Positions 5,003-56,330 of a stretch of 56,735 nt of DNA are shown one piece after another. The stretch lies in contig CANKRG010000004.1 in NCBI GenBank assembly GCA_947485165.1, positions 1-56,735 of the forward strand. The letters run 5' to 3'. Position numbers and translations under genes: made by a program. Origin of the DNA: Comamonadaceae bacterium. Lineage in GTDB: Bacteria; Pseudomonadota; Gammaproteobacteria; Burkholderiales; Burkholderiaceae_C. How positions within the stretch are numbered: the first letter of the stretch is position 1; the number at the start of each line of letters is the position of its first letter. Under the pieces are notes generated by a model. It did no database searches. It was not told the origin of the DNA and saw only the letters and a list, made by a program, of their open reading frames with translations.

Positions 5003-6736
5003 ATGAGAACACAATTAGCCGGTCACTTGTTGGTCGAATGCCTCGTTGCCCAAGGTGTGACACACGCTTTTGGCGTTCCCGGCGAGAGTTTTTTAGCCGT
5101 CCTGGACGGCTTTCATGCCTACAAAGATGACATCGAATTCGTCATCAACCGGCAAGAGGGCGGCGCCGCGTTCATGGCCGAGGCCGCTGGCAAGCTCACT
5201 GGCCGGCCAGGTGTGTGTTTTGTGACACGCGGCCCTGGTGCTACGAACGCCTCTATTGGCGTGCACACCGCCTTTCAAGATTCCACGCCCATGGTGCTTT
5301 TTGTCGGTGACGTGGCCAGCGACACCCGCGACCGCGAAGCCTTTCAAGAAGTTAACTATCTGAGTTTTTTCGGCCCTTCCACGGGTGGCATGGCCAAACG
5401 GGTCGAGCGTATTGACGATGCTAAACGCATCCCCGAATACGTCGCCCGCGCCTTTGCCACCGCCATGAATGGCCGTCCTGGTCCTGTCGTCATCGTCTTG
5501 CCTGAAGATATGCTGACGCAGATGGTAGACGTTGTACCATTGCCTAAAGCCATGCCGGTAGAGGCATGGATTACACCTGAGTCGGCGAATTTATTGCGTG
5601 ATATGCTATTAAAATCAGAGCGACCTTTGGTTATCTCAGGTGGCAGCGGTTGGACAGTGCAGTCCGCGCAAGCGCTGCAACGATTTGCCGAAAACTGGTC
5701 GCTGCCGGTCGGTAATGCCTTTCGCTTTCAAGACACGTTTGACAATTTTCACCCGTTGTATGCGGGCGATGTGGGCATCGGCATCAACCCCAAGCTGGCG
5801 GCGCGCATCAAGCAAAGTGATCTGATCATCGCCATCGGCCCACGTTTGGGCGAGATGACCACCGGTGGCTACACCCTGTTGCAAGCGCCCAAATCTGCGC
5901 AAAAGCTGGTGCACATCCACGCCAGTGCGGAAGAGCTTGGCCGCGTTTACCAAGCAGATTTAGCCATTCATGCCAGCATGCGTGCCGCTACACGCTCGCT
6001 GGAGGCGTTGTCTGCGCCGCCAACTTTGCCGTGGCAGGCTTGGGTGAAAGAGGCAAATAACGATTATTTGGCAAATATTGATCCCGCCAATGGTGGCCTC
6101 AAACTCCCAGGCACCATCGATATGCCAGCTATCATCGCCACTCTCCAAAAGCATCTGCCTGCAGATGCGGTGCTGACCAATGGCGCTGGCAACTTTGCCA
6201 GCTGGTTGCACCGTTTTTATCAATACCACGGCTTGGCTAAAGGCTTCAAAACCCAGCTCGCCCCGACCAATGGCGCGATGGGCTACGGCGTGCCAGCAGG
6301 CATTGCAGCGAATATCTTGACCAAAAACGCAGCCACAGGTCCACGCGTCGCCTTCACCATCGCGGGCGATGGCGATTTCATGATGAATGGTCAAGAACTG
6401 GCCACCGCAGCGCAAGTCGGTGCAAAAAGCATTGTTTTGCTGCTCAACAACGGCATGTTTGGCACGATACGCATGCACCAAGAGCGTGAGTACCCACGCA
6501 ATGTCAGCGGCACTAAGCTGGCCAACCCCGACTTTGCTGGCCTCGCACGCGCCTATGGCTACGCGGGTGTGCGCATCACCCATACGCACGAGTTTGAAGC
6601 CGAGTTGTTGGCTGCACTCGCGCGTCCACAAGGCACTTTGATCGAGGTTACTTTGGATCCCGAAGTAATATCTACCCGTGGCAGTTTGGCTCAAATCACA
6701 CAAAATGCTTTGGCAAGTGTTGCAAAGTCTGCTTAA
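5003..6736 (+). CDS. Thiamine-pyrophosphate-dependent enzyme, acetolactate-synthase/decarboxylase family
   Basis: 577-residue member of the ALS / benzoylformate decarboxylase superfamily. It carries the N-terminal PYR domain with the cofactor-activating glutamate (E52 in NRQEGGA), a central domain, and the C-terminal PP domain. The metal/TPP motif is GDGD at 455-458 closed by NN at 482-483. The stretch after it (GMFGTIRMHQEREYP) is typical of uncharacterised homologues. It has no partner small regulatory subunit gene beside it, as biosynthetic ilvB would, so a catabolic 2-oxo-acid decarboxylase, carboligase or lyase is more likely. It lies between the MFS transporter and a serine hydrolase. 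The substrate is unknown. Confidence 0.85.
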   Translation: MRTQLAGHLLVECLVAQGVTHAFGVPGESFLAVLDGFHAYKDDIEFVINRQEGGAAFMAEAAGKLTGRPGVCFVTRGPGATNASIGVHTAFQDSTPMVLFVGDVASDTRDREAFQEVNYLSFFGPSTGGMAKRVERIDDAKRIPEYVARAFATAMNGRPGPVVIVLPEDMLTQMVDVVPLPKAMPVEAWITPESANLLRDMLLKSERPLVISGGSGWTVQSAQALQRFAENWSLPVGNAFRFQDTFDNFHPLYAGDVGIGINPKLAARIKQSDLIIAIGPRLGEMTTGGYTLLQAPKSAQKLVHIHASAEELGRVYQADLAIHASMRAATRSLEALSAPPTLPWQAWVKEANNDYLANIDPANGGLKLPGTIDMPAIIATLQKHLPADAVLTNGAGNFASWLHRFYQYHGLAKGFKTQLAPTNGAMGYGVPAGIAANILTKNAATGPRVAFTIAGDGDFMMNGQELATAAQVGAKSIVLLLNNGMFGTIRMHQEREYPRNVSGTKLANPDFAGLARAYGYAGVRITHTHEFEAELLAALARPQGTLIEVTLDPEVISTRGSLAQITQNALASVAKSA

Positions 6737-8997: not shown

Positions 8998-9051
8998 TGC
9001 TATGAATAATATAGCAATATAAATAATAAATACAACGGCTAGAGGTTAAAA
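8998..9051 (+). repeat. AT-rich dispersed element, copy 1 (intergenic)
   Basis: Begins with the hairpin-forming GCTATGAATAATATAGC and ends with AATAAATACAACGGCTAG, matching the element consensus described in the findings. It lies between the M29-like gene and the convergent Bug receptor gene, just downstream of both. Confidence 0.7.
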
Positions 9052-10628: not shown

Positions 10629-10680
10629 TGCTATAAAAATAGCAGCATCTTAGGCAATAAATACGCCGTCTAGATGCTTA
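10629..10680 (+). repeat. AT-rich dispersed element, copy 2 (intergenic)
   Basis: GCTATAAAAATAGC hairpin followed by TTAGGCAATAAATACGCCGT and CTAG. It starts five bases after the fasciclin remnant's stop and ends 12 bases before the stop of the convergent small gene. Confidence 0.75.
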
Positions 10681-10905: not shown

Positions 10906-12494
10906 GACATCACTCCCGTTTGCTTCATCGCCGTCAACACAGGCGCAATATCCGAGCCTTTCCAGCGTCCCATCACATAGCCGTCGGGTCGCACCAGTAT
11001 CAGCGCTGACTCGGTCTGATTTGACAGACCAAACTGGCTGTAGCCGGCGTATTTATTGCCTGAGAAGCTATGAATTTTGATGCTATTGTGCGCTAATTCT
11101 GTTTGTTTTGGCTTGTCTAATGAATCGCCAAAGACGATGCACACAAAGCCTTTGCCAAACTGTTGCGTTAAATGAGAGCCATTGTCGAGCAAAACCTCAG
11201 GTGCCGGCATGCCCGGCGCGGCCAAGTCGCTGCTCCAAATGTCACTATCTGGCAAGTTCAAGGACGAACCGACGTAATGAATCGGCATCGATTGCCGCGG
11301 GTTAATCAGCGAACGCACTTTCTCGTCTGCCAGTGCCAGCTTCAAAGTCGCCTCTCGCATCAGTTTGAACGCAAAGTTGGGCGGTGCCATGAACTCCGTG
11401 CTTTTTGCGCCGAAAACCATGTTTTCATGCGCGGCGTGGACGCGCTCTGTTGAATACGTGTCCAGCAAGCTGTCTGGCGACGTGCCGTTGATGACGCGCG
11501 CCAGCTTCCAAGCCAAGTTTCCCGCATCGTCCAGCCCAGAATTCAACCCGCGCACGCCAAAAATCGGCACCAAATGCGCCGCATCGCCCGCAAACAGCAC
11601 GCGGTTGTGTCGGTATTTCTCCAAACTCAGGCATTTGGCGTTGTAGATCGAAATCCACAGCGGCTCCCATGGCTCGTTTTCACCAATCATGGACAAATGG
11701 CTTTGCACGCGGGGCAGCACGTTCTCGGGCTTGATGGCCTCCACCGGGTCTTCATCGTCCCGAATCTGGTAATCAATCCGCCACACGTCCTCAGGCTGGC
11801 GGTGCATCAAAATGGTGGAGCCGGGGTTGCTGGGCGGGTCAAACCAAGCCAGCCGCTCGACGTCACGCTTGGTTTTTTGGCGGATATCGACGATGACGTA
11901 CTTGCCGTCGTACTGCATACCCTGCAGTTGCAGCCCCAGCTGCTCACGCACCGTGCTGCGGCCACCATCGCAGGCGACCAGCCAATCGGCTCGTATGGTC
12001 TGCGTTTTGCCGTCAGCATCAACCACATCCACTTCATTGAAGTCTGCTTGTTGGCGCACCGCTTCGACTTTGCAATTCCACCGCACATCCACCAAATCAC
12101 CGTAGTTGTCTTGGTATTTTTGAGCCGCTTCATGCGCAAATTGCTCCGCAAAATACTGCTGAATGTTGACCATGGGCGCAAAGCGCTGCGTGGGGTCGCT
12201 GGGCATTTGAAAGTGCAGCACCTCGGTATCGCGGTAATAACTGCGCCCACCCACCCACGACAACCCTGTTTCGACCAACGGCTTGTCCGCACCCACCCAG
12301 CCCAAAATCTCCTGCGAGCGCCGCGACATGCAAATCGCCCGGCTGCCGGTGCAGTAAGACGGGTCGTTTTCAATCACCACGCTGCGAATGCCAAAACTGG
12401 CCAGCAGCGCGGCAAGCGTCAACCCCACTGGACCGCCGCCGGCGATAAGTACGGGCGTATTTACGGGGAACGGTGAGTTGGTTGGCTTATTCAT
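10902..12494 (-). CDS. FAD-dependent hydroxylase, MhpA/phenol-hydroxylase type
   Basis: 530 residues. N-terminal FAD fold with GGGPVGLTLA (about residues 18-27), DG motif VACDGGRSTVREQ (~175) and GD motif FAGDAAHLVPIFGVRGLN (~300). A C-terminal thioredoxin-like tail ends in LVRPDGYVMGRW. This architecture is that of 3-(3-hydroxyphenyl)propionate hydroxylase and related NAD(P)H-dependent ring hydroxylases; the substrate cannot be read from sequence. It overlaps the DUF2783-like gene downstream. The nearest upstream gene on the strand is ygiQ, separated by an AT-rich repeat. No regulator gene adjoins it. Confidence 0.85.
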   Translation of the reverse strand: MNKPTNSPFPVNTPVLIAGGGPVGLTLAALLASFGIRSVVIENDPSYCTGSRAICMSRRSQEILGWVGADKPLVETGLSWVGGRSYYRDTEVLHFQMPSDPTQRFAPMVNIQQYFAEQFAHEAAQKYQDNYGDLVDVRWNCKVEAVRQQADFNEVDVVDADGKTQTIRADWLVACDGGRSTVREQLGLQLQGMQYDGKYVIVDIRQKTKRDVERLAWFDPPSNPGSTILMHRQPEDVWRIDYQIRDDEDPVEAIKPENVLPRVQSHLSMIGENEPWEPLWISIYNAKCLSLEKYRHNRVLFAGDAAHLVPIFGVRGLNSGLDDAGNLAWKLARVINGTSPDSLLDTYSTERVHAAHENMVFGAKSTEFMAPPNFAFKLMREATLKLALADEKVRSLINPRQSMPIHYVGSSLNLPDSDIWSSDLAAPGMPAPEVLLDNGSHLTQQFGKGFVCIVFGDSLDKPKQTELAHNSIKIHSFSGNKYAGYSQFGLSNQTESALILVRPDGYVMGRWKGSDIAPVLTAMKQTGVMS

Positions 12495-12511: not shown

Positions 12512-12563
12512 TGCTATAAATTAAGTAGCAAATTAGGGAATAAATACGCCGGCCGCAGCCTTA
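12512..12563 (+). repeat. AT-rich dispersed element, copy 3 (intergenic, touching the ygiQ stop)
   Basis: GCTATAAATTAAGTAGC then TTAGGGAATAAATACGCCGG. The 3' end of the element abuts the stop codon of the minus-strand ygiQ gene, so the element forms the first transcribed sequence after that gene. Confidence 0.75.
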
Positions 12564-15030: not shown

Positions 15031-15651
15031 ATGTCTGCTGTGTCTGAACCATCCCCCCGCACCGTCCCACGCCCCCAACCCACCTCGCTATCCGACCTGT
15101 TTTGGTCAATGACCTGGCTGGCTTTGCAGGGTTTTGGTGGCGTTTTGGCGGTAGTACAGCGCGTGTTGGTCGATGAAAAAGGCTGGTTGACCAACGAAGA
15201 ATTCATCGAGGATTGGGCGGTTGCGCAAATTCTGCCCGGTCCGAATGTGGTGAATCTGGCCCTGATGATTGGCGACCGCTACTTTGGCCTGCGCGGTGGT
15301 TTGGCGGCATTGGCGGGGATTCTGACTTTTCCGCTGCTGGTTGTTTTGGTGGTTGCCGCCTTGTTTGCCAGTGTTGCCGATATGCCCATGGCGCAGGGCG
15401 CGCTCAAAGGCATGGGCGCTGTGTCGGCGGGGTTGATTGCAGCAGTCGGGCTACGATTGGTCACCGCTTTGAAGGCAAATGTGATGTCAGCCGGCGTATG
15501 TATTGCCTTAGCCACTATGACATTTATAGCCATTGCGATACTGCGGATTCCGCTGGCGTGGGTTTTGCTGGGCTTGGGGGCGCTTGCAACGCTCTGGGCT
15601 TACCGACAGATCGGTGCGATAGAACAATCTAACAAAGGAGGCAAGTCATGA
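15031..15651 (+). CDS. chrA: Chromate transporter half (ChrA, short-chain CHR), first subunit
   Basis: 206 residues with about six hydrophobic helices. The CHR signature is visible: QGFGGVLAVVQRVLVDEKGW, then LPGPNVVNLALMIG. Short-chain CHR proteins come as tandem homologous pairs that together make the two halves of the long ChrA chromate/sulfate-type antiporter in the inner membrane. This is the N-terminal-half homologue. It overlaps the next gene by four bases. Neither half need transport chromate; many CHR pairs are uncharacterised. Confidence 0.88.
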   Translation: MSAVSEPSPRTVPRPQPTSLSDLFWSMTWLALQGFGGVLAVVQRVLVDEKGWLTNEEFIEDWAVAQILPGPNVVNLALMIGDRYFGLRGGLAALAGILTFPLLVVLVVAALFASVADMPMAQGALKGMGAVSAGLIAAVGLRLVTALKANVMSAGVCIALATMTFIAIAILRIPLAWVLLGLGALATLWAYRQIGAIEQSNKGGKS

Positions 15652-16273: not shown

Positions 16274-16453
16274 TTACGCTGAGATTTTTGTCGGCACGGC
16301 AAACTTGGCGATCGGGTCTTCTTGACCCGCTGCTGCTAACTTTTCTTTCTGATTGACGTCATAAAAAGCCGTGAAAACTTGGTCGATCGAGCGTGTTTCA
16401 GGCAAAACGTAAACCATGCCATCCGACTTTTTGAACGAGGCATGCAACGCCAT
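16274..16453 (-). CDS. Small hypothetical protein, 59 residues
   Basis: An open frame reading MALHASFKKSDGMVYVLPET and ending in KFAVPTKISA. The composition is protein-like (mixed polar and hydrophobic residues, little low complexity), and it fills a stretch with no other gene. No ribosome-binding site is visible and I recognise no family. It could instead be the end of a decayed gene. It sits 39 bases downstream of the lipoprotein gene on the same strand. Confidence 0.35.
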   Translation of the reverse strand: MALHASFKKSDGMVYVLPETRSIDQVFTAFYDVNQKEKLAAAGQEDPIAKFAVPTKISA

Positions 16454-16492: not shown

Positions 16493-16837
16493 TCACCGTG
16501 GATTCTCAAAAAACACGTAATTCGTCGCGTAGTCACTGATTTCAAAATAGACTTTTTTCTCGCCCGCATCAGCGATCATGTTCAGGTTTTCGTCCAAGAT
16601 ACCGTAGCCGTAGCGGTAGGTGCGCGCTTTGCCGTCATCGGTGCCTAGGGCGGTGCTGATTTTGTCGATTTTTAGGAAGCGGCGGACGACTTTGTCGCCA
16701 GCGTAGATTTCTAAAACGCCGTTGGTTCCGGTGTAGTTTTGAATGTCTCGGCTGATTTTGTTTTGTTGCTCTTGCGTACAACTAGCCAGCGTAAATACTA
16801 CCAAAACTGCTATTAAAAGTGTAGCTATTATCTTCAT
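16493..16837 (-). CDS. Small lipoprotein of unknown function
   Basis: 114 residues. Residues 1-20 form a lipoprotein signal peptide with lipobox L17-A18-S19-C20; C20 would be lipidated. The mature part (QEQQNKISRDIQNYTGTNG...) is a small soluble domain of ~94 residues, possibly periplasmic, with the conserved-looking RTYRYGYGILDENLN. I do not recognise a family. The coding sequence for residues 5-19 matches the AT-rich dispersed element in sequence, length and frame (see findings), so the export signal may derive from a repeat. It lies downstream of rlmB. Confidence 0.7.
   Translation of the reverse strand: MKIIATLLIAVLVVFTLASCTQEQQNKISRDIQNYTGTNGVLEIYAGDKVVRRFLKIDKISTALGTDDGKARTYRYGYGILDENLNMIADAGEKKVYFEISDYATNYVFFENPR
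16782..16830 (-). repeat. AT-rich dispersed element, copy 4, coding for a lipoprotein signal peptide
   Basis: On the minus strand it reads GCTACACTTTTAATAGC, then GGTAGTATTTACGCTGGCTAG. Compared with the gcvT copy the spacing is identical (15 codons from GCT to GCT AGT). The core variant with TATTTACGC also occurs in the intergenic copy at 51427. The similarity is partial, so common origin is likely rather than proven. Confidence 0.5.
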
Positions 16838-16865: not shown

Positions 16866-16888
16866 TCGACAAGCTCAGTCCGAACGGG
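16866..16888. repeat. Half-copy of the GTTCG/CTGAGC palindromic repeat
   Basis: CGACAAGCTCAGTCCGAACG is one arm of the repeat that is present as a full inverted pair at 19706-19781. It lies between the lipoprotein gene and rlmB. Confidence 0.6.
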
Positions 16889-16922
16889 GTTGGTAAATTT
16901 AGGTCAAGTTTGTTTAAAATGA

Positions 16923-17696
16923 TTATGCCGAAATACGCTGCCGCATCGCTTCGTACAGGCAAACACCACTGGCAACCGACACGTTCAAGCTCTCGACCGC
17001 ACCCATCATAGGGATACTGATCAGCTCGTCGCAGGTCTTGGCTGTCAGCTGGCGGATGCCGTCGCCTTCTGCGCCTAAAACCAAGGCAACTGGGCCTTTG
17101 AAGTCGGTTTGGTAGAGCGTTTTGGTGGCTTGGTCGCTGGTGCCGATGATCCAGATATTGCGTTCTTTCAGCTCATTCAGCGTACGCGCCAAGTTGGTGA
17201 CCATGAAGTAGGGCACGGTTTCGGCCGCGCCGCTGGCAACTTTGGCGACCGTGGCGTTGATGCCGGCGGCGTTGTCTTTGGGGGCGATCACCGCGTGCAC
17301 GCCAGCGCCGTCGGCCACGCGTAGGCAAGCGCCCAGGTTGTGCGGGTCGGTCACGCCGTCCAGCACCAAAATCAACGGGTTGACGCGTTCAGCCAGTGGC
17401 ACGTCTGCATTAGCCGCTTCCAAATTTTCGAGCAATTCATCAAGCGAATGCACTAGGGTGACGGCTTCAACCTTGGCAACAACGCCTTGGTGACCGTGGC
17501 CGCCCGCCAGTTTGACGAGGCGTTCGCCATCGGATTCGATCAATTTCATGCCCATATCGGACGCTTTGGCGATGAATTGGCGCATGCGCGCATCGCGGCG
17601 GCTGGCGTCGTGGTAGATCTCGATGACGGATTTAGGGGCGGTTTTGAGGCGCACATTGATGGCATGGAAGCCGAAGAGTACTTTTGAGGATGACAT
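16923..17696 (-). CDS. rlmB: 23S rRNA 2'-O-ribose methyltransferase RlmB (G2251)
   Basis: 257-residue SpoU/TrmH-family enzyme that methylates the 2'-OH of G2251 in the 23S rRNA peptidyl-transferase loop using SAM. An N-terminal substrate-binding domain (about 1-80; LFGFHAINVRLK) precedes the knotted SPOUT domain. That domain carries the three family motifs NLGACLRVADGAGVHAV, VLGAEGDGIRQL and ESLNVSVASGVCLYEAMRQR. Length is normal (~245-260). It diverges from the glycine riboswitch. Usually found after rnr in beta-proteobacteria; here rnr is not next to it. Confidence 0.93.
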   Translation of the reverse strand: MSSSKVLFGFHAINVRLKTAPKSVIEIYHDASRRDARMRQFIAKASDMGMKLIESDGERLVKLAGGHGHQGVVAKVEAVTLVHSLDELLENLEAANADVPLAERVNPLILVLDGVTDPHNLGACLRVADGAGVHAVIAPKDNAAGINATVAKVASGAAETVPYFMVTNLARTLNELKERNIWIIGTSDQATKTLYQTDFKGPVALVLGAEGDGIRQLTAKTCDELISIPMMGAVESLNVSVASGVCLYEAMRQRISA

Positions 17697-17728: not shown

Positions 17729-17758
17729 TTGGCCACGGCGTTTTGAATTGGTTAGAAT
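17729..17758 (+). promoter_or_regulatory. Candidate sigma-70 promoter for the gcv operon
   Basis: TTGGCC (17729-17734) and TAGAAT (17753-17758) with an 18-base spacer, ending a few bases before the first riboswitch aptamer. Position fits; sequence match is moderate. Confidence 0.4.
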
Positions 17759-17760
17759 TC

Positions 17761-18020
17761 AGGCTGTCAGGAGAGCGTTTTAGACAATATCGTCAAGATT
17801 AAACATCACGATGTGTCGTAAAACCGCCGAAGGCGCAGGAGATTTCCAGATGGGAAACTCTGAACGCTCAGGCACCAAGGACTGACAAGACGCTTGAAAT
17901 CATTTTTTGAGCGTTCCTTGCTGGAGAGAGGTGACCCCTTGAGGTCATCCACCGAAGGAGCAACCAAGTTACCTATTTAACTTGCGAATCTCTCAGGTAA
18001 AGAGGACAGCCGGGGCATTG
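17761..18020 (+). ncRNA. Tandem glycine riboswitch
   Basis: Two consecutive glycine aptamers precede gcvT. Aptamer 1 runs from GTCAGGAGAGCG (17766) to GGCACCAAGGACTGAC (17886). Aptamer 2 runs from GCTGGAGAGAGGTGACCCC (17920) through CACCGAAGGAGCAACC to CTCAGGTAAAGAGGACAGC (18010). A linker of about 30 bases containing CATTTTTTGAGCG joins them. Terminal pairings GTCAG/CTGAC and GCTG/CAGC close the two domains. Glycine binding is expected to switch on the glycine cleavage operon, probably at translation initiation, because the ribosome-binding AGGAG follows at 18042 and no terminator hairpin with a T-run is seen. Confidence 0.95.
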
Positions 18021-18052: not shown

Positions 18053-19249
18053 TTGTCTACTGAATTTGCCACTTCCGCATTGCCAATGCCGCTTTTAAAG
18101 ACGCCTTTGTACGACTTGCACGTCGCACTTGGCGCTCGGATGGTGCCATTTGCGGGCTACACCATGCCTGTGCAGTACCCCAGCGGCTTGGTCGCCGAGC
18201 ACCACCACACCCGCAACCACGCCGGTTTGTTTGACGTCTCCCACATGGGCCAGTTGCGCCTGGTCGGCCTGGACGCCGCCGCCGCCTTTGAAACCCTGAT
18301 GCCGGTGGATGTGATCGACCTGGCGGTGGGCAAGCAGCGCTATGGGCTGCTGACCAACGAGGCGGGTGGCATTATTGACGATTTGATGTTCTTCAAGGTC
18401 GCGGATGACGAGATTTTTGTCATCGTCAACGGTGCTTGCAAGGTGGGTGATATTGCGCACATTCAGCAACATATCGGTAATCGCTGCCAAATCATCACCA
18501 TGCCAACCCACGGTTTGCTGGCCTTGCAAGGGCCGCAGGCGGTGACGGTGATGGCCAGATTGACGCCCGGAATTGAGAAGCTGGTGTTCATGACCGGCGG
18601 ACGTTTCAACATCGCCGGTGCAGATTGCTTTGTCACGCGCAGTGGCTACACGGGTGAAGATGGCTTTGAAATCTCGGTATCTGCCGAGCAAACCGAGATG
18701 CTTGCCAACGCGCTGCTGGCAGAGCCTGAGGTCAAACCGATTGGTCTGGGCGCGCGCAACTCGCTGCGCTTGGAGGCCGGGCTGTGTTTGTACGGCCAAG
18801 ACATAGACGCGACGACCAACCCCGTCGAGGCCGGGCTGGGCTGGGCCATGCAAAAGGTACGTCGCGTGGAGGGTGCAAGAGCGGGTGGCTACATAGGTGC
18901 TACAAATATAATAGCTTCACAGGCAATAAATACGCCGGCTAGTGTCCAAAATGAGCCTAGAAATAGGCAATTATTAGCCAAATCACTGAAAAAACGCGTC
19001 GGTTTGATCGCTTTAGACCGTGTCCCTGTGCGCGAACACACCGAATTGCAAGACTTGAATGGCAAATGCATCGGTGAAGTCACCAGCGGCTTGTTAGCGC
19101 CGACTATCGATAAACCGATTGCGATGGGCTACGTTAGCGCTGAATTCTCTGCGGTAGGCACCCGAATCAACGCCATTGTTCGCGGTAAAGTCGTGGCTAT
19201 GGAAGTTGCGTCTATGCCGTTTGTACCAAACCGTTATTTCCGTGGCTAA
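18053..19249 (+). CDS. gcvT: Glycine cleavage system T protein (aminomethyltransferase), with an element-derived insertion
   Basis: T protein takes the aminomethyl group from lipoyl-H protein and transfers the methylene to tetrahydrofolate, releasing ammonia. The start is TTG at 18053, six bases after AGGAG; no ATG is well placed. Family landmarks are VALGARMVPFAGYTMPVQYP, then FDVSHMGQ, GYTGEDGFEI, LRLEAGLCLYG and the C-terminal barrel (VPVREHTELQ to the end). Residues 283-302 are encoded by an AT-rich dispersed element, lengthening the loop between the catalytic domain and the C-terminal barrel by about 15 residues. The product is 398 residues where ~365-380 is usual. The frame is intact and flanking sequence is well conserved, so it should be functional. 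Confidence 0.95.
   Translation: MSTEFATSALPMPLLKTPLYDLHVALGARMVPFAGYTMPVQYPSGLVAEHHHTRNHAGLFDVSHMGQLRLVGLDAAAAFETLMPVDVIDLAVGKQRYGLLTNEAGGIIDDLMFFKVADDEIFVIVNGACKVGDIAHIQQHIGNRCQIITMPTHGLLALQGPQAVTVMARLTPGIEKLVFMTGGRFNIAGADCFVTRSGYTGEDGFEISVSAEQTEMLANALLAEPEVKPIGLGARNSLRLEAGLCLYGQDIDATTNPVEAGLGWAMQKVRRVEGARAGGYIGATNIIASQAINTPASVQNEPRNRQLLAKSLKKRVGLIALDRVPVREHTELQDLNGKCIGEVTSGLLAPTIDKPIAMGYVSAEFSAVGTRINAIVRGKVVAMEVASMPFVPNRYFRG
18898..18960 (+). repeat. AT-rich dispersed element, copy 5, inside gcvT
   Basis: GCTACAAATATAATAGC, then CAGGCAATAAATACGCCGGC and TAG out of frame. It is read as A-T-N-I-I-A-S-Q-A-I-N-T-P-A-S. The other two forward frames of this element contain stops (TAA; TAG). Confidence 0.85.
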
Positions 19250-19705: not shown

Positions 19706-19781
19706 CCCGTTCGGGCTGAGCCTGTCGAAGCCTTCTGTTTTTTACGTATCGCCAGCCCTTCGACAGGCTCAGGGCGAACGG
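19706..19781. repeat. Inverted pair of GTTCG/CTGAGC palindromic repeats between gcvH and gcvP
   Basis: CCGTTCGGGCTGAGCCTGTC at the left is mirrored by GACAGGCTCAGGGCGAACGG at the right around a ~30-base spacer. The transcript can fold into a long hairpin. No T-run follows, so it is more likely an mRNA-stability or processing structure than a terminator. The sequence type is common in proteobacterial genomes. Confidence 0.85.
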
Positions 19782-19801
19782 TGTAGTTTGAGATTTTTGC
19801 C

Positions 19802-22771
<2,970 letters not shown>

Positions 22772-28830: not shown

Positions 28831-30756
28831 ATGACGATCGCCACTGCCAATGCCAATGCCAATGCCAATGCCAATGCTACAGCCGCAGCATCACCCAAAT
28901 ACCGCGAATTCAAATACGGCGTCACGCGTGCCATCGTTTCTACATCCGGCGATGCGACTTATCTGCAAGCTGAAAATGACTTAGATCCGTATGGCGTCAG
29001 ACTCACGGATAGACTAGAACACTGGGCAAAACACCGCCCTGACCGCACCTGGATGGCGCGTCGAGACGCTGTCACCAAAGAGTGGGTACACGTGAGCTAT
29101 GCACAAGCCTGGGAAAAAGCGCAGCGCATTGGTCAGTCTTTTTTAGACATGGGTTTGAGTGTTGACCGACCTGTGGCAATTTTGAGTGAAAACAGCTTAG
29201 AGCATGCTTTGATTGCAATCGGTGCGATGACAGTGGGCATTCCGTATTGCAGTGTATCTACCGCTTACAGCTTGTTGAGCCAAGACTTTGAAAAACTCAA
29301 GCATATATTTGCAACCATCACGCCAGGTTTTGTTTACGCCAGTGACTGGGAGAAATACAGCAAGGCGATCAACACTGTCGTTCAAACAGACACGATAATT
29401 GCTACAAATAATATATCTACACAGACAATAAATACGCCGACTACAGCCAAAAATTACGTTAAATTTGATGATTTATTTGCAAATACGGCAAATGATCGCG
29501 TTGGCCATGCCATGCAAGCCACAGGGCCAGATACGATCGTTAAATTCCTTTTCACCAGCGGCTCAACCAAATTACCCAAAGGCGTGATCAATACGCAAAA
29601 AATGATTTGCGCGAATGTCCAGCAAATCAGCCAATCCATCCCTGCAATGGCGGAAGATCCCCTGGTGTTGGTCGATTGGACACCTTGGAACCACACTTTT
29701 GGCGGCAACCATGATTTCAATTTGATTTTGCACCATGGCGGCACCATGTACATTGATGATGGCAAGCCCGTGCCCGCGTTGATTGGCGAGACCTTAAGAA
29801 ATCTACGTGAAATTTCACCGACGATGTACTTGAATGTACCCACTGGATTTGAGTGTGTGGCCGCCGCCATGAAAGCCGATGATGAAGACGGCAGACAGTT
29901 GCGAAAATCATTGCTGTCACGCTGCAGAATGTTTTTTTACGCTGGGGCATCGTTGGCGCAACCGATTTGGGACAGTTTGTTTGAAAGCGCTGAAAAGGAA
30001 ATTGGCGAGCGCATCGTGATGACCACCGGTTTAGGCATGACTGAAAGCGCACCTTTTGCTATTTTTGTGACCAGTCCGAACGTGAAGGCCGGTGATCTTG
30101 GTTTGCCGGCCCCAGGTATCAGTTTGAAACTCGTACCTAGTGGCGACAAAGTGGAAGTACGTTACAAGGGCCCCAACATCACATCGGGCTACTGGCGCAA
30201 CGACGAAGCTACCAAAGAGAGTTTCGACGAAGATGGCTACTTTTGCACGGGCGATGCCGTGAAATGGATCGACGAATCCGACCATCACAAAGGTTTGAAG
30301 TTTGATGGTCGCATTGCCGAAGATTTTAAATTATCAACAGGAACATTTGTGAGCGTAGGCCCCATGCGCGCAAAAATCATTGCCGCTGGCGCGCCTTTTA
30401 TTCAAGACGTTGTCATCACAGGTTTGAATGAAAAAGAGGTGGGGGCTATGATTATTCCCGCGCTGATTCCGTGCAGGAAAGCTTTTGGTTTGGCTGATAG
30501 CGCGTCTATGGCTGATATTGCTATGCATCCGCCCATGCAGCAATCCATGGCAAAAGTCATCACAGAATTAGCAAAAACAGCTACAGGTTCAGCCAGCAGA
30601 GTTGCGCGAGCCATCGTGCTGACAGAGCCGCCGAGTATCGACAAAGGTGAGATCACCGACAAAGGCAGTATCAACCAACGTGCGGTGTTGAAAGAGAGGG
30701 CTGCATTGGTTGCTGCACTTTATGACGATACCGCTTTGAATATTCTTAAATCTTGA
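28831..30756 (+). CDS. Feruloyl-CoA synthase-like AMP-forming ligase
   Basis: 641 residues from the ATG at 28831; an in-frame ATG at 28774 would overlap the crotonase gene and neither start has a clear ribosome-binding site. ANL-superfamily adenylating enzyme. P-loop FLFTSGSTKLPKG near residue 245, A5-type motif TGLGMTESAP, and A8-type region GYFCTGDAV. It activates a hydroxycinnamate (ferulate, caffeate, p-coumarate) with ATP and CoA. Two oddities: residues ~6-15 are an Ala-Asn repeat encoded by five TGCCAA units, and residues 191-206 come from an AT-rich dispersed element placed just before the core P-loop. It has an unusually AT-rich codon choice around the insertion. Confidence 0.87.
   Translation: MTIATANANANANANATAAASPKYREFKYGVTRAIVSTSGDATYLQAENDLDPYGVRLTDRLEHWAKHRPDRTWMARRDAVTKEWVHVSYAQAWEKAQRIGQSFLDMGLSVDRPVAILSENSLEHALIAIGAMTVGIPYCSVSTAYSLLSQDFEKLKHIFATITPGFVYASDWEKYSKAINTVVQTDTIIATNNISTQTINTPTTAKNYVKFDDLFANTANDRVGHAMQATGPDTIVKFLFTSGSTKLPKGVINTQKMICANVQQISQSIPAMAEDPLVLVDWTPWNHTFGGNHDFNLILHHGGTMYIDDGKPVPALIGETLRNLREISPTMYLNVPTGFECVAAAMKADDEDGRQLRKSLLSRCRMFFYAGASLAQPIWDSLFESAEKEIGERIVMTTGLGMTESAPFAIFVTSPNVKAGDLGLPAPGISLKLVPSGDKVEVRYKGPNITSGYWRNDEATKESFDEDGYFCTGDAVKWIDESDHHKGLKFDGRIAEDFKLSTGTFVSVGPMRAKIIAAGAPFIQDVVITGLNEKEVGAMIIPALIPCRKAFGLADSASMADIAMHPPMQQSMAKVITELAKTATGSASRVARAIVLTEPPSIDKGEITDKGSINQRAVLKERAALVAALYDDTALNILKS
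28845..28874 (+). repeat. Five-unit TGCCAA tandem repeat at the start of feruloyl-CoA synthase
   Basis: Five perfect hexamers plus a partial sixth code for alternating Ala-Asn. Slippage would change length by two residues without altering frame. Confidence 0.9.
29401..29453 (+). repeat. AT-rich dispersed element, copy 6, inside the feruloyl-CoA synthase gene
   Basis: GCTACAAATAATATATCTAC then CAGACAATAAATACGCCGAC. Read as A-T-N-N-I-S-T-Q-T-I-N-T-P-T-T, the same frame as in gcvT. Confidence 0.8.
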
Positions 30757-33063: not shown

Positions 33064-33829
33064 GTTCTTCACCCAAATAGGCGGCTTGCACGTTGGCATC
33101 GGCACGCACTGCGGCCGGTTTGTCGCTTGCGATGACTTGACCGTTGACCATCACGGTGAGTTTGTCTGCCAAGGCGAAAACGGCATCCATATCATGTTCT
33201 ACGAGCAGCATGGCATGGTCTTTTTTCAGGGTGTGCAGCAATTCAATCATGCGTTCAGCCTCGGCCACTCCCATGCCAGCCAGGGGTTCATCTAACAATA
33301 GAACTTGTGGTTGGGTGGCCAAAGTCATCGCAATCTCTAGTTGCCGCTGCTCGCCATGGCTGATGGTTCCGGCTACAGTGTGCATGCGATTTTCTAGCTT
33401 GCACAAGGCTATAGACAACGCAGTTATCTCTTGAGCTGCTATTGATTGTGTAGCAGTTTGGGTATTTTGAAGCCATAGTATCGGGTTCCAAGGCTGCTGC
33501 ACGTCACGCGACTGGGCAGCCAAGCGCACATTGTCCCAAACGCTGAGAGGTAGAAACACATTGGTTTTTTGGAAGCTGCGCCCCAGGCCTTGTCTTGAAA
33601 TTTTCTCGGCCGACCAACCCGTGACGTCGTGCCCGTTTAGTTGAATGCTGCCTGATGTCAACGTCAAATCGCCAGAAACCAAGTTGGTAAGGGTTGATTT
33701 TCCCGCACCATTGGGGCCGATCACGGCATGGATTTGACCTCGGTACAAATCAATCGACACATCGTTCACAGCAGCCAAGCCACCAAAATGCTTGGTTAGG
33801 TTTTTGGCGGACAAAAGTAATTCAGTCAT
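33056..33829 (-). CDS. livG: Branched-chain-type ABC transporter ATPase LivG
   Basis: 257 residues from ATG 33829, eight bases inside the livM end; a GTG at 33850 is less likely. Walker A GPNGAGKST, signature ISHGEQRQLEIAM (SHGEQ is usual for LivG), Walker B VLLLDEPLAGMGVAEAERM, H-loop VEHDMDAVFALAD. Residues ~126-141 (TATQSIAAQEITALSIA) have a coding sequence resembling the AT-rich element, in a variable region ahead of the signature. It pairs with LivF. Confidence 0.9.
   Translation of the reverse strand: MTELLLSAKNLTKHFGGLAAVNDVSIDLYRGQIHAVIGPNGAGKSTLTNLVSGDLTLTSGSIQLNGHDVTGWSAEKISRQGLGRSFQKTNVFLPLSVWDNVRLAAQSRDVQQPWNPILWLQNTQTATQSIAAQEITALSIALCKLENRMHTVAGTISHGEQRQLEIAMTLATQPQVLLLDEPLAGMGVAEAERMIELLHTLKKDHAMLLVEHDMDAVFALADKLTVMVNGQVIASDKPAAVRADANVQAAYLGEEHV
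33408..33454 (-). repeat. Possible degenerate AT-rich element inside livG
   Basis: On the minus strand GCTACACAATCAATAGC then a diverged core. It shares the 5' hairpin and frame of the gcvT copy but only about 60 percent overall, so this is tentative. Confidence 0.25.
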
Positions 33830-37297: not shown

Positions 37298-39757
37298 ATG
37301 AATATACTATGTCTAGGCGGTGGCCCCGCTGGTCTTTACTTTGCGGTGCTCATAAAGCAGCAAAACCCAGCCAACGTTGTCACCGTGGTGGAACGCAACC
37401 GCCCATTTGACACCTTCGGCTGGGGCGTTGTGTTGTCAGACCAGACCTTGGCCAATCTGCAAGTGGCAGATCCCGCAAGTGCGCAACTGATTGGCGAGTC
37501 CTTTCACCACTGGGACGACATTGAAGTTTTTTTCAAAGGGCGCGATGTTCGCTCAGGTGGACATGGCTTTTGCGGTATCGGACGTAAAAAGCTGCTCAAT
37601 ATCCTGCAAGACCGTTGCTTGGCGCTGGGCGTGAACCTGGTGTTTGAGGCCGATGTGCAAGACGACCAGGCCATCGCCACAGAGTACAACGCGGACTTGG
37701 TCATCGCCTGCGACGGCTTGAACAGCCGCATCCGTACTCGGTATGCAGATACCTTCCAGCCCGATATCGATAACCGCCAGTGTCGCTTCGTCTGGCTGGG
37801 CACCAAGAAAAAATTCGATGCTTTTACCTTCGCTTTCGAGCAAACCGAGCATGGCTGGTTTGCTGGCCATGCCTACCAATACGACAGCGAGATGTCGACG
37901 TTCATCGTCGAAACCCCCGAAGCTGTGTGGCGGGCGCATGGTTTGGACACGATGGAGCAGGTTGATGCCATCGCCTTTTGCGAAAGCTTGTTTACCAAGC
38001 ATTTAGATGGAAATGCCTTGATCAGCAACGCCACGCACTTGCGCGGCTCGGCGATCTGGATTCGTTTTCTACGCGTGATTTGCAAAAAATGGGTGCATAA
38101 CGTGTCGATTGAAGGCCGAAGCGTACCCGTCGTTTTGATGGGCGATGCCGCCCACACCGCGCACTTCTCCATCGGCAGCGGCACCAAGCTGGCGCTTGAG
38201 GATGCGATCGACCTGGCGGATGAATTTAAAAAAGCAGCAGGCAATGGCGAAGACATGACGCAGGTGCTGCAAGGTTACGAAGCCCGCCGCAGCGTGGAGG
38301 TGTTGAAAATCCAGAACGCCGCCCGCAACTCGACCGAGTGGTTTGAAAACGTGCAACGCTACAGCGGCATGGAGATCGAGCAGTTTGCCTACTCGCTGTT
38401 GACCCGTTCCCAGCGCATCAGCCATGAAAACCTGCGCCTGCGGGATGCAAACTGGTTGGGTGGTTATGAAAACTGGCTGCAACACGCCGTTCCGGCTGAG
38501 CCCTTCGACGGGCTCAGGACAGGCTCTGTCGATGCCTTCATCGACAATTCCACGCAAACCCTTAGCCAAGCTCAGGGCGAACGGATGAATTTGCCACCGA
38601 TGCTGCTGCCCTTCAACGTGCGCGACATCATCCTCAAAAACCGCATCATCGTCTCCCCGATGGCGACCTACAGCGCGGTGGACGGCGTGGTGCAGGACTT
38701 TCACCTCGTCCACTTGGGCGCCAGAGCTTTGGGCGGCGCGGCCTTGGTGATGGTGGAAATGACCAGCCCGACGCCCGAAGGCCGCATCACCCCCGGCTGC
38801 ACCGGCTTGTGGAACCATACGCAAACGCTGGCTTTCAAACGCATCACCGATTTCGTCCACACCAGTAGCAGCGCCAAAATCGGCTTGCAACTCGGACACA
38901 GCGGCTCCAAAGGCTCTACACAATCAGGTTGGGAGGCGACGGACGAGCCGTTACCGAGCGGAAATTGGCCTTTGCTCTCAGCCAGTGCGGTGGCTTACGG
39001 CGAACAAAACCAAACGCCCAAAGCGATGACACGTGCTGATATGGACCTGATGACGCAGCAGTTTGTCGATGCCGCAAAACGGGCTATCGAAGCGAATTTT
39101 GACTGGCTGGAGCTGCATTGCGCCCATGGTTACCTGCTCGCTAGTTTCCTGTCACCCCTGACGAATATCCGCACAGACGAGTACGGCGGTGCTATAGAAA
39201 ACCGCTGCCGCTACCCGCTGGAAGTCTTCGCCGCCATCCGCGCCGTTTGGCCCGCACATCTGCCGATGAGTGTGCGCCTGTCTGCGCACGACTGGGCGGA
39301 AGGCGGCAACACGGCGGATGATGGCGTGGCGATGGCCAGGCTCTTCAAAGCCGCCGGCTGCGACATGGTAGACGTGTCCTCTGGCCAAACCACGCGTACC
39401 GCCAAACCCACCTACGGCCGCATGTACCAAACCCCGTTTGCCGACCGCATCCGCAACGAAGTGGGCATCCGCACCATCGCCGTGGGCGCGATCACCGAGG
39501 CAGACCAGGTCAACAGCATCATCGCCGCTGGCCGCGCCGACCTGTGCGCCATCGCGAGGCCACACTTGGCCGACCCCGCTTGGACGCTGCATGAAGCCGC
39601 CAAGCTGCAAAAGCAGGTCGATTGGCCCCAACAATACTGGAGTGGTCGCGACCAGCTCTACCGCGAGCTGGCCAAGCAAAATACAGTATCAAATACAGGT
39701 GTAGGCAGCGTATTTATTGCCCCATTAGCTATGAAAAATACAGCAAATGAAGAATGA
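37298..39757 (+). CDS. Fused flavin monooxygenase / Old Yellow Enzyme reductase, 2-aminobenzoyl-CoA (or salicylyl-CoA) type
   Basis: 819 residues from ATG 37298 (the open frame extends 12 codons upstream). Residues 1-~385 are a group A flavin hydroxylase: LGGGPAGLYFAVLIKQ, DG motif IACDGLNSRIR, GD motif VLMGDAAHTAHFSIGSG. Residues ~436-800 are an NADH:flavin oxidoreductase of the Old Yellow Enzyme family: RIIVSPMATYSAVDG, then ELHCAHGYLLASFLSPLTN and TDEYGGAIENRCRYP. This fusion defines 2-aminobenzoyl-CoA monooxygenase/reductase, which hydroxylates and then reduces (dearomatises) the CoA-bound ring. Databases also call such fusions salicylyl-CoA 5-hydroxylase/oxidoreductase. The linker (397-429) is repeat-derived and the tail (801-812) comes from an AT-rich element. 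Start lacks a ribosome-binding site. Confidence 0.88.
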   Translation: MNILCLGGGPAGLYFAVLIKQQNPANVVTVVERNRPFDTFGWGVVLSDQTLANLQVADPASAQLIGESFHHWDDIEVFFKGRDVRSGGHGFCGIGRKKLLNILQDRCLALGVNLVFEADVQDDQAIATEYNADLVIACDGLNSRIRTRYADTFQPDIDNRQCRFVWLGTKKKFDAFTFAFEQTEHGWFAGHAYQYDSEMSTFIVETPEAVWRAHGLDTMEQVDAIAFCESLFTKHLDGNALISNATHLRGSAIWIRFLRVICKKWVHNVSIEGRSVPVVLMGDAAHTAHFSIGSGTKLALEDAIDLADEFKKAAGNGEDMTQVLQGYEARRSVEVLKIQNAARNSTEWFENVQRYSGMEIEQFAYSLLTRSQRISHENLRLRDANWLGGYENWLQHAVPAEPFDGLRTGSVDAFIDNSTQTLSQAQGERMNLPPMLLPFNVRDIILKNRIIVSPMATYSAVDGVVQDFHLVHLGARALGGAALVMVEMTSPTPEGRITPGCTGLWNHTQTLAFKRITDFVHTSSSAKIGLQLGHSGSKGSTQSGWEATDEPLPSGNWPLLSASAVAYGEQNQTPKAMTRADMDLMTQQFVDAAKRAIEANFDWLELHCAHGYLLASFLSPLTNIRTDEYGGAIENRCRYPLEVFAAIRAVWPAHLPMSVRLSAHDWAEGGNTADDGVAMARLFKAAGCDMVDVSSGQTTRTAKPTYGRMYQTPFADRIRNEVGIRTIAVGAITEADQVNSIIAAGRADLCAIARPHLADPAWTLHEAAKLQKQVDWPQQYWSGRDQLYRELAKQNTVSNTGVGSVFIAPLAMKNTANEE
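38487..38584. repeat. GTTCG/CTGAGC palindromic repeat forming the inter-domain linker
   Basis: CGTTCCGGCTGAGCCCTTCG and GGGCTCAGGACAGG at the left and CAAGCTCAGGGCGAACGG at the right are arms of the same repeat seen between gcvH and gcvP. Translated as VPAEPFDGLRTG..SQAQGERM between the two enzyme domains. Confidence 0.8.
39699..39733 (-). repeat. AT-rich dispersed element, copy 7 (reverse orientation), at the end of the fused monooxygenase gene
   Basis: GCAGCGTATTTATTGCCCCA and TTAGCTAT are the reverse complement of the element core and 5' arm. It codes for the G-S-V-F-I-A tail, ends 14 bases before the overlapping marR start at 39747, and may be partly truncated. Confidence 0.65.
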
Positions 39758-41146: not shown

Positions 41147-42442
41147 ATGTCCAATACTTTGAAATCAAACGTCATTTTCTCTACGGCGCAGTATGACCTG
41201 CCGTTCTTCGACACCGCCCATGCCGATTTAGCACGCGGTCTGGCAGACTGGGCAGCGCAACAGCAGGTTGACGAGTCTGACGACCGCCGCGCCTGCAAAG
41301 ACTGGGTCAAGCGCCTGGGGCAGGGCGGCTGGTTGCGCTACTGCGTCCCCGCCGAACATGGCGGCGCGTTGCCGCAACTCGATTCCCGCGCGCTGGTGAT
41401 TTTGCGTGAAACGCTGGCTTTTCATTCCCCGCTGGCGGATTTTGCCTTTGCCATGCAGGGCCTGGGCAGTGGCGCGATCACCCTGGCAGGCACGCCGGCG
41501 CAGCAAGCCGCCTACCTGCCAGCGGTGGCGCGGGGCGAGAAAATCGCCGCGTTTGCCTTGAGCGAGCCTGATGCCGGCTCTGACGTGGCGGCGATGCAAA
41601 CCAGAGCAGTCAAGGTGACTGGAAATGACGCTATAAATAATAGTGCACCTCAGGCAATAAATACGTCGGCTAGAGGTAAATTTGACGGTGAAAATGACTT
41701 AAATGACGAGTTTTATGCCCTCAACGGCGTCAAAACCTGGATCAGCAACGGCGGTTTGGCTGATTTTTACCTCACCTTCGTTAAGACAGACTCCGCTGTC
41801 GGAACCAAAGGCATCAGCGCCTTCATTGTTGATGCCAGTTCAAAAGGCTTGGATACCTCAGAGCACATTCAAGTCATGGCACCGCATCCGCTGGCAACGC
41901 TGCGGTTTACCGATTGCCAGATTCCTGCCAGTGCCTTGCTGGGTGAGGAGGGCGAAGGTTTCAAGCTGGCGATGCGGACCTTGGACATTTTCCGTGCCTC
42001 CGTCGCCGCCGCCGCGCTGGGCATGGCGCGCCGCGCGATGGCCGAGGCGCTGCATTTTGCCAAAACCCGTCGTATGTTTGGCGGCACTCTGGCCGACATG
42101 CAGCTCACGCAGGCCAAGTTTGGCGACATGGCAGCGTTGATCGACAGCGCCGCGCTGCTGACCTACCGCGCCGCGTGGATGCGCGACAAATTGGGTACGG
42201 CAAACAAAGAATCTGCAGCCACCTACAGCCGTGCCTCCGCCATGGCCAAGCTGGTCGCCACCGAAAACGCGCAAAAAGTCATAGACATGGCGCTGCAAAT
42301 GCATGGCGGGCAGGGCGTTCAGGTGGGCAGCATCGTCGAGCACTTGTACCGCGACATCCGCTCCTTGCGCATCTACGAGGGCGCAACCGAGGTGCAGCAG
42401 CTCATCATTGGTAAATCGGTGCTCAAGGATGTCGTTATTTAA
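41147..42442 (+). CDS. Acyl-CoA dehydrogenase carrying an element-derived insertion
   Basis: 431 residues; ATG lies directly after the crotonase stop, with GGAGG upstream. FAD-dependent acyl-CoA dehydrogenase fold: [15 protein letters not shown] (FAD/substrate motif, ~residue 140), [16 protein letters not shown], helical domain [20 protein letters not shown], and [14 protein letters not shown] at the C-terminus. The catalytic base position cannot be fixed by eye. Residues ~162-176 ([15 protein letters not shown]) are encoded by an AT-rich element. With an adjoining Asp/Glu/Asn-rich stretch they add about 27 residues in the loop before GVKTWISNG; family members are usually ~380-400. The frame is intact. 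Confidence 0.87.
41629..41680 (+). repeat. AT-rich dispersed element, copy 8, inside the acyl-CoA dehydrogenase gene
   Basis: GCTATAAATAATAGTGCACC then CAGGCAATAAATACGTCGGC and TAGAGG. Same reading frame as the gcvT copy. Confidence 0.85.
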
Positions 42443-45385: not shown

Positions 45386-45435
45386 TCGTTCGCCCTGAGC
45401 TTGTCAAATGGTTTCGACAGACTCAACCCGAACGG
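45386..45435. repeat. Inverted pair of GTTCG/CTGAGC repeats
   Basis: CGTTCGCCCTGAGCTTGTC on the left and GACAGACTCAACCCGAACGG on the right around a short spacer, between the HD-domain and class II aldolase genes. Confidence 0.75.
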
Positions 45436-46322: not shown

Positions 46323-46378
46323 TGCTATATTTTTTATAGCGCATTAGGCAATAAATACGCCGGCTAGAGTCGTATTTA
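46323..46378 (+). repeat. AT-rich dispersed element, copy 9 (intergenic, best two-hairpin example)
   Basis: GCTATATTTTTTATAGC forms the first stem (6 pairs). TTAGGCAATAAATACGCCGG and CTAGAGTCGTATTTAT form a second stem through ATAAATACG/CGTATTTAT. It lies about 49 bases before the helicase start. Confidence 0.85.
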
Positions 46379-51426: not shown

Positions 51427-51480
51427 ACTATTAAATTAATAGTAATTTAGGAAATATTTACGCCGGCTACAGTCATATTT
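51427..51480 (+). repeat. AT-rich dispersed element, copy 10 (intergenic)
   Basis: ACTATTAAATTAATAGTAAT then TTAGGAAATATTTACGCCGG and CTACAG. The 5' stem is ACTATT/AATAGT and the core has the TATTTACGC variant. Confidence 0.7.
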
Positions 51481-52826: not shown

Positions 52827-52853
52827 TGCTTTAAAAGTGCTTAAATACGCCTT

Positions 52854-52896
52854 TAGACGGCGTATTATATACATATACTGCTATAAAATACATAGC
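52854..52896 (-). repeat. AT-rich dispersed element, copy 11 (reverse, intergenic)
   Basis: Reverse complement reads GCTATGTATTTTATAGC, then ATAATACGCCGTCTA. With the bases beyond it, AATACGCC/GGCGTATT form a perfect second stem (52844-52866). Lies between dusA and the truncated transporter. Confidence 0.65.
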
Positions 52897-53202: not shown

Positions 53203-53216
53203 GCCATAAATATGAA

Positions 53217-53261
53217 CCTAGCTGGCGTATTTATTGCCTAAGATGATTTTAAATTTATAGC
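53217..53261 (-). repeat. AT-rich dispersed element, copy 12 (reverse, intergenic)
   Basis: CCTAGCTGGCGTATTTATTG then CCTAAGATGATTTTAAATTT and ATAGC, the reverse complement of the consensus. It lies between the transporter remnant and the end of the GntR gene. Confidence 0.85.

Positions 53262-54146: not shown

Positions 54147-56330
<2,184 letters not shown>

Follow-up and report, generated by a model that had tools for sequence, protein, structure and literature searches.

Rickettsia palindromic elements (RPE) were reportedly described by Ogata et al. in 2000. Palindromic repeats lying in frame within proteins have been reported in Rickettsia (PMC2229807, PMC10969869), and Delihas has reported that, in Yersinia, the signal peptide predicted for YPO1552 is formed in part by the RU-2/YPAL repeat (PMC2759123, PMC2229807). 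Pairs of short motifs have been found in Polaromonas naphthalenivorans (ATAGCT(N)22CAAAAG, 125 copies) and in Acidovorax ebreus (GCTTAT(N)5AAGCG, 114 copies), mostly in intergenic DNA (PMC5217627); their role is given as unknown, and signal peptides are not discussed in the part of that paper available to us. The BRE repeat occurs in Bordetella and Comamonadaceae, at times inside coding sequences, and has been described as 75-91 bp long, with a GC content of ~69% in Bordetella, often in tandem and with 29 copies or fewer per genome (PMC3110155). The repeats treated in the accessible portion of PMC2755013 are CRISPR only. A literature search on the element analysed here, on repeats in these genera and on repeat-made leaders, with subscription papers largely outside its scope, returned nothing closer, and six stretches of element sequence had no match in a text search of 5.39 million papers.

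The locus compared here with these systems lies in a window of 56,735 nucleotides, the whole stretch of DNA that was analysed, which is one of the contigs that make up the draft genome G000 (2.2 Mb, 86% complete). The closest named relatives of this genome, among the data used, are Polaromonas sp. (L062, L063). The window contains a small lipoprotein gene, the signal peptide of which is very probably a domesticated copy of a dispersed repeat of ~58 nt (hereafter, the element), having replaced the leader of an already exported protein. The features of this gene are the following:

16493..16837, minus strand: small lipoprotein gene, 114 aa, from the ORF, with the signal peptide at residues 1-19, a putatively lipidated Cys20 and a conserved mature domain
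16781..16825, minus strand: element-derived segment, codons 5-19 (ATLLIAVLVVFTLAS), in element reading frame S0
16778..16780, minus strand: codon TGT of Cys20, immediately 3' of the element's GGCTAGT, from the sequence, the ORF and the orthologue alignment

In the ORF translation, the N-terminus of the protein reads MKIIATLLIAVLVVFTLAS-C-TQEQQNKISRD..., with codons 5-19 being GCT ACA CTT TTA ATA GCA GTT TTG GTA GTA TTT ACG CTG GCT AGT (16825 down to 16781). The lipobox motif of bacterial lipoproteins ends in an invariant Cys, and the arrangement MKII-ATLLIAVLVVFTLAS-C, with its basic n-region, hydrophobic core, lipobox and invariant Cys, has the layout of a type II signal peptide, which would be processed by Lgt and LspA. 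The protein matches no Pfam or NCBIfam family above cut-off and no PDB chain at E<=1, and its AlphaFold2 model is poor (mean pLDDT 51.7, pTM 0.25). The gene is flanked by rlmB (16923-17696, minus strand) on one side and by chromate-transporter-like genes on the other, and a small ORF of 59 aa (16274-16453, minus strand) lies downstream of it on the same strand. A second, different repeat, of the CGTTCGCCCTGAGCYTGTCGAAGG type, is also dispersed in the window (19708-19790, 38495-38593, 45387-45412 and 52560-52594), and a likely part of it can be recognised by eye at ~16866-16889, just 5' of the lipoprotein start.

The own-genome consensus of the element, ~58 nt in length, is ATTTGCTATAAATTTAATAGCA..TTAGGCAATAAATACGCCGGCTAGAGCCATATTT, and in four other genomes it is GCTATNAATTTAATAGCT..TT(A/G)CGC....GCGCTAGAGGCCAATTT or nearly so. 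Apart from the leader copy, the window holds the following copies, found with a position matrix and, in all cases except that of gcvT, also with a calibrated model:

5573..5621, minus strand: copy antisense in a coding region
8999..9047, plus strand: copy
10630..10678, plus strand: copy
11035..11083, minus strand: copy
12513..12561, plus strand: copy
15482..15530, minus strand: copy antisense in a chromate-transporter gene, in the hydrophobic frame
18899..18947, plus strand: copy in frame in gcvT (ATNIIASQAINTPAS)
21011..21059, plus strand: diverged copy in frame in gcvP
29401..29449, plus strand: copy in frame in a coding region
33406..33454, minus strand: copy in frame in a coding region
39696..39744, minus strand: copy antisense in a coding region
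41630..41678, plus strand: copy in frame in a coding region
46324..46372, plus strand: copy
51427..51475, plus strand: copy of the TATTTACGC variant, as in the lipoprotein
52848..52896, minus strand: copy
53213..53261, minus strand: copy
55633..55681, minus strand: weaker copy (15.3 bits) antisense in a coding region

Both gcvT and gcvP hold an in-frame copy (18899-18947 and 21011-21059, plus strand), and GcvT is longer by an insertion of ~16 residues than the solved GcvT 1wsr. Just 5' of gcvT there is a tandem glycine riboswitch (17758-18019, plus strand) made of two RF00504 aptamers (43 and 57.4 bits), which are the only two hits in an Rfam scan of the window, where the element had no match above the gathering score. 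The gene holding the copy at 15482-15530 matches the NCBIfam chromate efflux transporter below cut-off. Counterparts of this antisense copy lie similarly far downstream of the lipoprotein in several genomes (L063 5001, L071 4977, L072 4482, L101 4076, L119 4501, L120 4564 and L129 4072), which may point to a long retention in coding DNA.

The repeat belongs to the Polaromonas/Rhodoferax side of the Comamonadaceae. A degenerate element pattern, allowing up to two mismatches, has 219 matches in the own genome and between 108 and 507 in 15 of the 24 genomes searched (own genome included), with 0 in the other 9, and the reversed pattern used as a control gives 0-2 matches per genome across the 24. 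Most copies in other genera escaped profile searches whose seeds came from the window alone, and models specific to each genome were therefore made. The samples taken from six genomes carrying the element (2.46 Mb) hold 594 copies above the threshold; leaving the leader copy aside, 276 of the remaining 593 fall inside called genes, 273 are intergenic and 44 lie across a gene edge, the gene calls being those of a simple script, with approximate start codons and N-terminal positions. Coding copies use mainly sense frame 0 (99 of 276) and one antisense frame (100), a preference that is partly forced by stop codons. The TAG stop of the genus consensus is present in 30 of 51 intergenic own-genome copies versus 0 of 26 in-frame coding copies; as called genes cannot contain stops, this absence arises by construction and was dropped as a sign of selection. 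When folds are compared with those of shuffled sequences, the G015 consensus forms two hairpins (z -2.9), while z is -1.3 for the own-genome consensus and +0.3 for that of G121.

As far as the accessible descriptions of RPE go, the element is like them in being a short repeat located between genes and also in frame in conserved protein genes, where it adds a peptide segment: its copies lie in frame in unrelated conserved genes (276 of 593 in called genes, and 199 of these 276 in two frames). Unlike RPE, of ~150 bp, it measures ~58 nt, is found in a different bacterial class, has two preferred coding frames and supplies signal peptides. The likeness is proposed as an analogy and not as membership. 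It shares with RU-2/YPAL, as seen in the available parts of those papers, the contribution of a mobile repeat to a predicted signal peptide, with homologues elsewhere carrying unrelated signal peptides. However, the case of RU-2/YPAL concerns one main locus and a putative protein and was made by prediction, whereas the element is found in 44 distinct leaders of one family and in ten other hydrophobic starts, and was compared with a null at the nucleotide level. The motif pairs of Polaromonas and Acidovorax, compared by eye, are probably fragments of the element family (ATAGCT core; GCTTAT..AAGCG hairpin). BRE, with its greater length, its high GC content in Bordetella and its far lower copy number, is set apart from the element by its published description only. 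In-frame repeats and one partly repeat-made signal peptide were, thus, already known; the recurrent reuse of a repeat across one lipoprotein family is new.

That the lipoprotein leader is a copy of the ~58-nt dispersed element, far beyond chance, has been confirmed in several ways. Its codons 5-19 align without gaps to the element (e.g., to the copy at 18899), and TGT, encoding Cys20, comes next. A position matrix built without the leader copy gives 21 matches above 10 bits in the window, with the leader copy at 41.9 bits and the other 20 between 29.5 and 60.9 bits. With a calibrated model built from 16 other copies, the leader copy scores 22.9 bits (E=4.7e-6 for the window), a significant match that nevertheless lies below the 16 building copies (35.5-54.2 bits), and it should therefore be considered a real but diverged copy. 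This divergence is also seen in the nearest single copies, from the own-genome and G031 samples, which are identical to it at 36 of 47 nt. Against a model of 114 own-genome copies, from which the leader copy was excluded, the score rises to 43.7 bits. Models built from 114, 119 and 135 copies of three genomes, again leaving out the leader copy, were applied to the starts of 1128 unrelated genes from those three genomes, 256 of which have hydrophobic N-termini: 1123 of them score 9.3 bits or less, and the five above 15 bits are all element copies called by the same models.

The nucleotide sequence itself carries this ancestry. The 45 nt of the leader score 43.9 bits, with 44.7 as the ceiling for any coding of that peptide. 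When the 15 amino acids were kept and synonymous codons were drawn by the usage of hydrophobic N-termini, the recodings averaged -2.3 bits (sd 8.0), and none of 200,000 reached 43.9, which indicates that the leader DNA, beyond its peptide, is element-like. Applied one by one to the 49 loci with an element leader, counting duplicates, this null yields p values that never exceed 4.5e-4. An earlier sequence-only reading of this DNA had proposed that codons 5-19 match the element in order, length (15 codons) and frame, and that the element's terminal GGCTAGT supplies the Leu-Ala-Ser of the lipobox directly before the Cys. Both proposals hold, the former by the gapless alignment at 41.9-43.7 bits and the latter by the position matrix, the models and the recoding null, and the profile scoring that it had suggested as a check places the leader far above other hydrophobic N-terminal coding sequences.

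Orthologues of the lipoprotein were found in 37 of 200 family genomes and in three of four genus genomes, and 295 relatives were confirmed in a collection with one genome per species, the named loci being the best 80 of these 295. Because one of the six search words used for the last set contains the Cys, these best 80 lean towards Cys-bearing relatives, the family- and genus-genome sets being free of that. Eight lower family-genome matches, from seven genomes plus a second copy in G063, stand outside the scored loci; this second copy (G063:C12:189198-189473) matches only from residue 22, and its start may differ. In the alignment of 38 orthologues there are 51 invariant columns, the first being Cys20 and none lying in the leader. 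One of the 111 orthologue loci is without full upstream DNA, and a Cys codon (TGC or TGT) is present in all the other 110. Once 14 duplicates were dropped, 96 distinct leaders were left, comprising 44 derived from the element (above 15 bits, the lowest at 20.1), 2 in a grey zone (7.0 and 9.0) and 50 at -0.1 or lower. The sequence [LVI][ASTVI][GAS] precedes the Cys in 31 of the 44 element leaders and in 33 of the 50 others, and among the leaders without it, one with LEG and two with LQG depart from a more permissive pattern as well. Leaders of the ordinary kind are seen in homologues from records titled Hydrogenophaga, Comamonas, Limnohabitans and Herbaspirillum.

Taking into account that the Cys is kept in 110 of 110 loci though 50 of the 96 leaders lack the element, it is very probable that the protein was already a lipoprotein, irrespective of the repeat. 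Judged on sequence evidence, the repeat took over an existing signal peptide, and no cytosolic protein was converted. This goes against the sequence-only reading at its most ambitious point, the turning of a cytosolic frame into an exported lipoprotein, given that none of the 38 aligned orthologues lacks the Cys, nor does any of the 110 loci, and the route to new secreted proteins that it envisaged becomes, as seen here, the replacement of an old signal peptide. The comparison of orthologous leaders that it had suggested counts against the cytosolic step only: all six scored leaders from genomes without pattern matches have no element and are of lipoprotein type, and they are unrelated in sequence.

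The element leader is found in 12 of 14 scored element-bearing genomes, three of the 12 sharing the window's genus, versus 0 of 6 element-free ones (Fisher p=0.0007). The element-bearing genomes without a clear element leader are G064 (214 pattern matches; grey) and the Variovorax G207 (360 matches; none). In G157 the element is present and no lipoprotein orthologue was found, and G058, G133 and G081 hold orthologues outside the scored loci. The element type of the own genome scores best for four of six leaders, and a closely similar type does so for the other two, which is what one would expect of local capture or of later conversion.

Two main registers can be distinguished by the distance from GCT to the Cys. 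It is of 15 codons in 6 distinct leaders (those of the window's genus, L070, L101 and L020), where the element's GGCTAGT or its equivalent abuts the Cys, and of 22 codons in 32, where most of the element is retained and followed by about seven further codons; in another 6 it is of 21, 24, 25 or 26. In a tree of RlmB and the mature lipoprotein, which used 78 of the 98 loci considered (40 with the element and 38 without it, with RlmB adjacent, identical rows taken once and two grey rows counted as 'none'), the presence of the element changes at least six times and the register at least nine times. Grouping all 40 element rows in one clade is disfavoured (AU p=0.031), as is one clade for the six 15-codon rows (AU p=0.021), tests that are modest, being based on a quick tree, on groups picked after seeing it and on data in which two element rows, L025 and L095, sit on long branches. 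It is thus probable that the repeat captured the leader of this lipoprotein more than once, the number of independent captures being one that we infer from these sequences.

The element also forms the starts of other proteins. In the six samples (2.46 Mb), ten copies constitute the N-termini of genes with hydrophobic starts, and nine of these were scanned: MlaA, two TctC receptors (one of them started by the antisense frame), a TupA-like protein, a small cytochrome c, MltB, an M14-type peptidase, RseB/MucB and L230. Eight of the nine match known families, whose members we take to be typically exported, L230 being without family and L197, the tenth, lying outside the scan. The PBP-like protein among them is nearest to TupA, below the cut-off of that model, and its start is made by the antisense frame, which gives hydrophobic starts at L158:9161, L209:10702 and L215:16584, in TupA-like, RseB-type and TctC proteins. 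MlaA is found in 24 of 24 genomes, and its leader is an in-frame element copy in five of them, namely the four that belong to the window's genus, at 27.4-47.6 bits, and the Variovorax G207, at 26.8 bits; the copy in G009 is out of frame (27.9 bits), and the other 18 genomes score -4.2 or lower. The distribution of MlaA element leaders between element-bearing and element-free genomes (5 of 15 versus 0 of 9, p=0.12) is not significant alone.

Regarding coding copies overall, no enrichment at N-termini was found (23 of 276 observed versus 21.5 expected, p=0.74), and a general targeting of the element to leaders is unsupported. Hydrophobic N-termini hold 10 copies versus 5.3 expected (p=0.048), an excess that is weak and partly circular. 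The lack of a general excess makes leaders look like sites where copies are tolerated, and sometimes useful, rather than targeted. The repeat would thus behave like a spare-part signal peptide, forming the starts of several proteins of exported type.

The replacement of the leader could have proceeded as follows. Two open frames of the repeat are in common use, the sense frame (A-[IT]-x-x-I-A-x-x-A-x-x-x-x-A) and an antisense one, and the peptides that they encode are rich in Ala and Ile. An in-frame copy would land in the leader of a protein already exported, and its Ala/Ile-rich helix would serve as the hydrophobic core and cleavage region. Non-synonymous changes, judged against typical in-frame copies, would then raise its hydrophobicity (CCT-CAG to GTT-TTG, AAT to CTT or TTT, and CCG to CTG), and loss of the old core would leave the length of the leader little changed. 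In the window's genus, the copy covers codons 5-19, ending in the Leu-Ala-Ser of the lipobox. The movement of the element and the order of insertion, tuning and loss of the old core are what we infer from these comparisons.

Some observations bear on the tuning of the peptide. The hydropathy of the 15 codons is 2.55 in the window and averages 1.06 over the 44 leaders versus 0.31 over 83 internal in-frame copies (p=2e-8), a gap that may partly be one of composition, since the mean is already 0.66 for intergenic copies when that frame is read. Pairing in the first stem is lower in the leaders (0.71, n=44) than in intergenic copies (0.80, n=273; p=0.001) and similar to that of other sense coding copies (0.74, p=0.33), and the RNA of the window copy folds worse than most shuffles (z +1.84). 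The higher hydropathy and the weaker pairing of the leaders, together with the poor folding of the window copy, suggest that selection may have acted on the peptide and not on a hairpin. Element leaders are slightly longer than the others (mean 21.6 versus 19.8 residues to the Cys, p=0.007), in a comparison of 49 and 61 loci with duplicates included and approximate starts. Beyond the replacement itself, it is possible, and we propose it tentatively, that the repeat is a mobile signal-peptide cassette, both of whose coding frames are near to a working leader and which has independently overwritten leaders many times (that of the lipoprotein several times, and those of MlaA, TctC-type, TupA-like, MltB and RseB-type proteins and a cytochrome), while gene conversion may keep these leaders in step with the repeat pool.

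Other explanations have to be weighed against a copy that replaced an older leader. It could be thought that the insertion gave a cytosolic frame both its signal peptide and its lipobox, creating a new lipoprotein, as the repeat does supply the Leu-Ala-Ser ahead of the Cys and the second copy in G063 matches only from residue 22. This is barely credible: an origin from a cytosolic frame is rejected on account of the Cys of the 110 loci, more than half of whose distinct leaders (50 of 96) have no element, and the homologues of Hydrogenophaga, Comamonas, Limnohabitans and Herbaspirillum are provided with ordinary leaders. Hardly more can be said for convergence, by which an AT-rich sequence coding for a signal peptide would resemble the element by chance, both encoding runs of Ala, Ile and Leu. 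Leaders and the open frame of the element are indeed alike in their richness in these residues, and the calibrated model of 16 copies gives the window copy no more than 22.9 bits, but a chance likeness of hydrophobic leaders is rejected on the basis of the synonymous and unrelated-gene nulls, with 0 of 200,000 recodings for the window, p at most 4.5e-4 at each of the 49 loci and only 5 of 1128 unrelated gene starts reaching 15 bits; moreover, the element leader tracks the presence of the element across genomes.

A single ancient insertion at the base of the Polaromonas/Rhodoferax group, followed by register shifts and losses instead of repeated captures, seems unlikely, although it deserves more consideration. 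The 22-codon register is common to 32 of the 44 distinct element leaders, and most element rows fall in one part of the tree; however, the two main registers (15 and 22) place different ends of the element before the Cys, the AU tests disfavour one clade in both cases (p=0.031 and 0.021), L020 is placed, with weak support, among rows without the element, and the element leaders of MlaA occur in the genus of the window and in Variovorax G207, with none in 18 other genomes. It is improbable that a DNA or RNA function, such as a protein-binding site or a translation-control hairpin, explains the retention of the element in the leader, with the peptide merely tolerating it. The two hairpins of the G015 consensus (z -2.9), the almost perfect agreement of third positions with the element and a first-stem pairing like that of other sense coding copies would be in accordance with such a function, but this pairing is lower than in intergenic copies, the window copy's RNA shows the poor fold given above, and the leader codons are more hydrophobic than those of other in-frame copies. 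The takeover of an existing signal peptide by a copy of the repeat, very probably followed by its domestication, is the reading preferred here.

Orthologous proteins often differ in their signal peptides, which change quickly and can seldom be traced to a source. In this family, the nucleotide ancestry of the leader can be read, and an interspersed repeat appears to have come to serve as leader for one lipoprotein across many species, and also for exported proteins unrelated to it. The source of new leaders thereby becomes testable, and the case illustrates how repeats compatible with a protein can be maintained within coding sequences. It is also a warning that similarity between leaders in this lipoprotein family may reflect the repeat and not protein homology. 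If the reading of the repeat as a cassette maintained by conversion were true, part of the evolution of signal peptides in these bacteria would consist of copying from donors dispersed by the hundreds, and not of point mutation.
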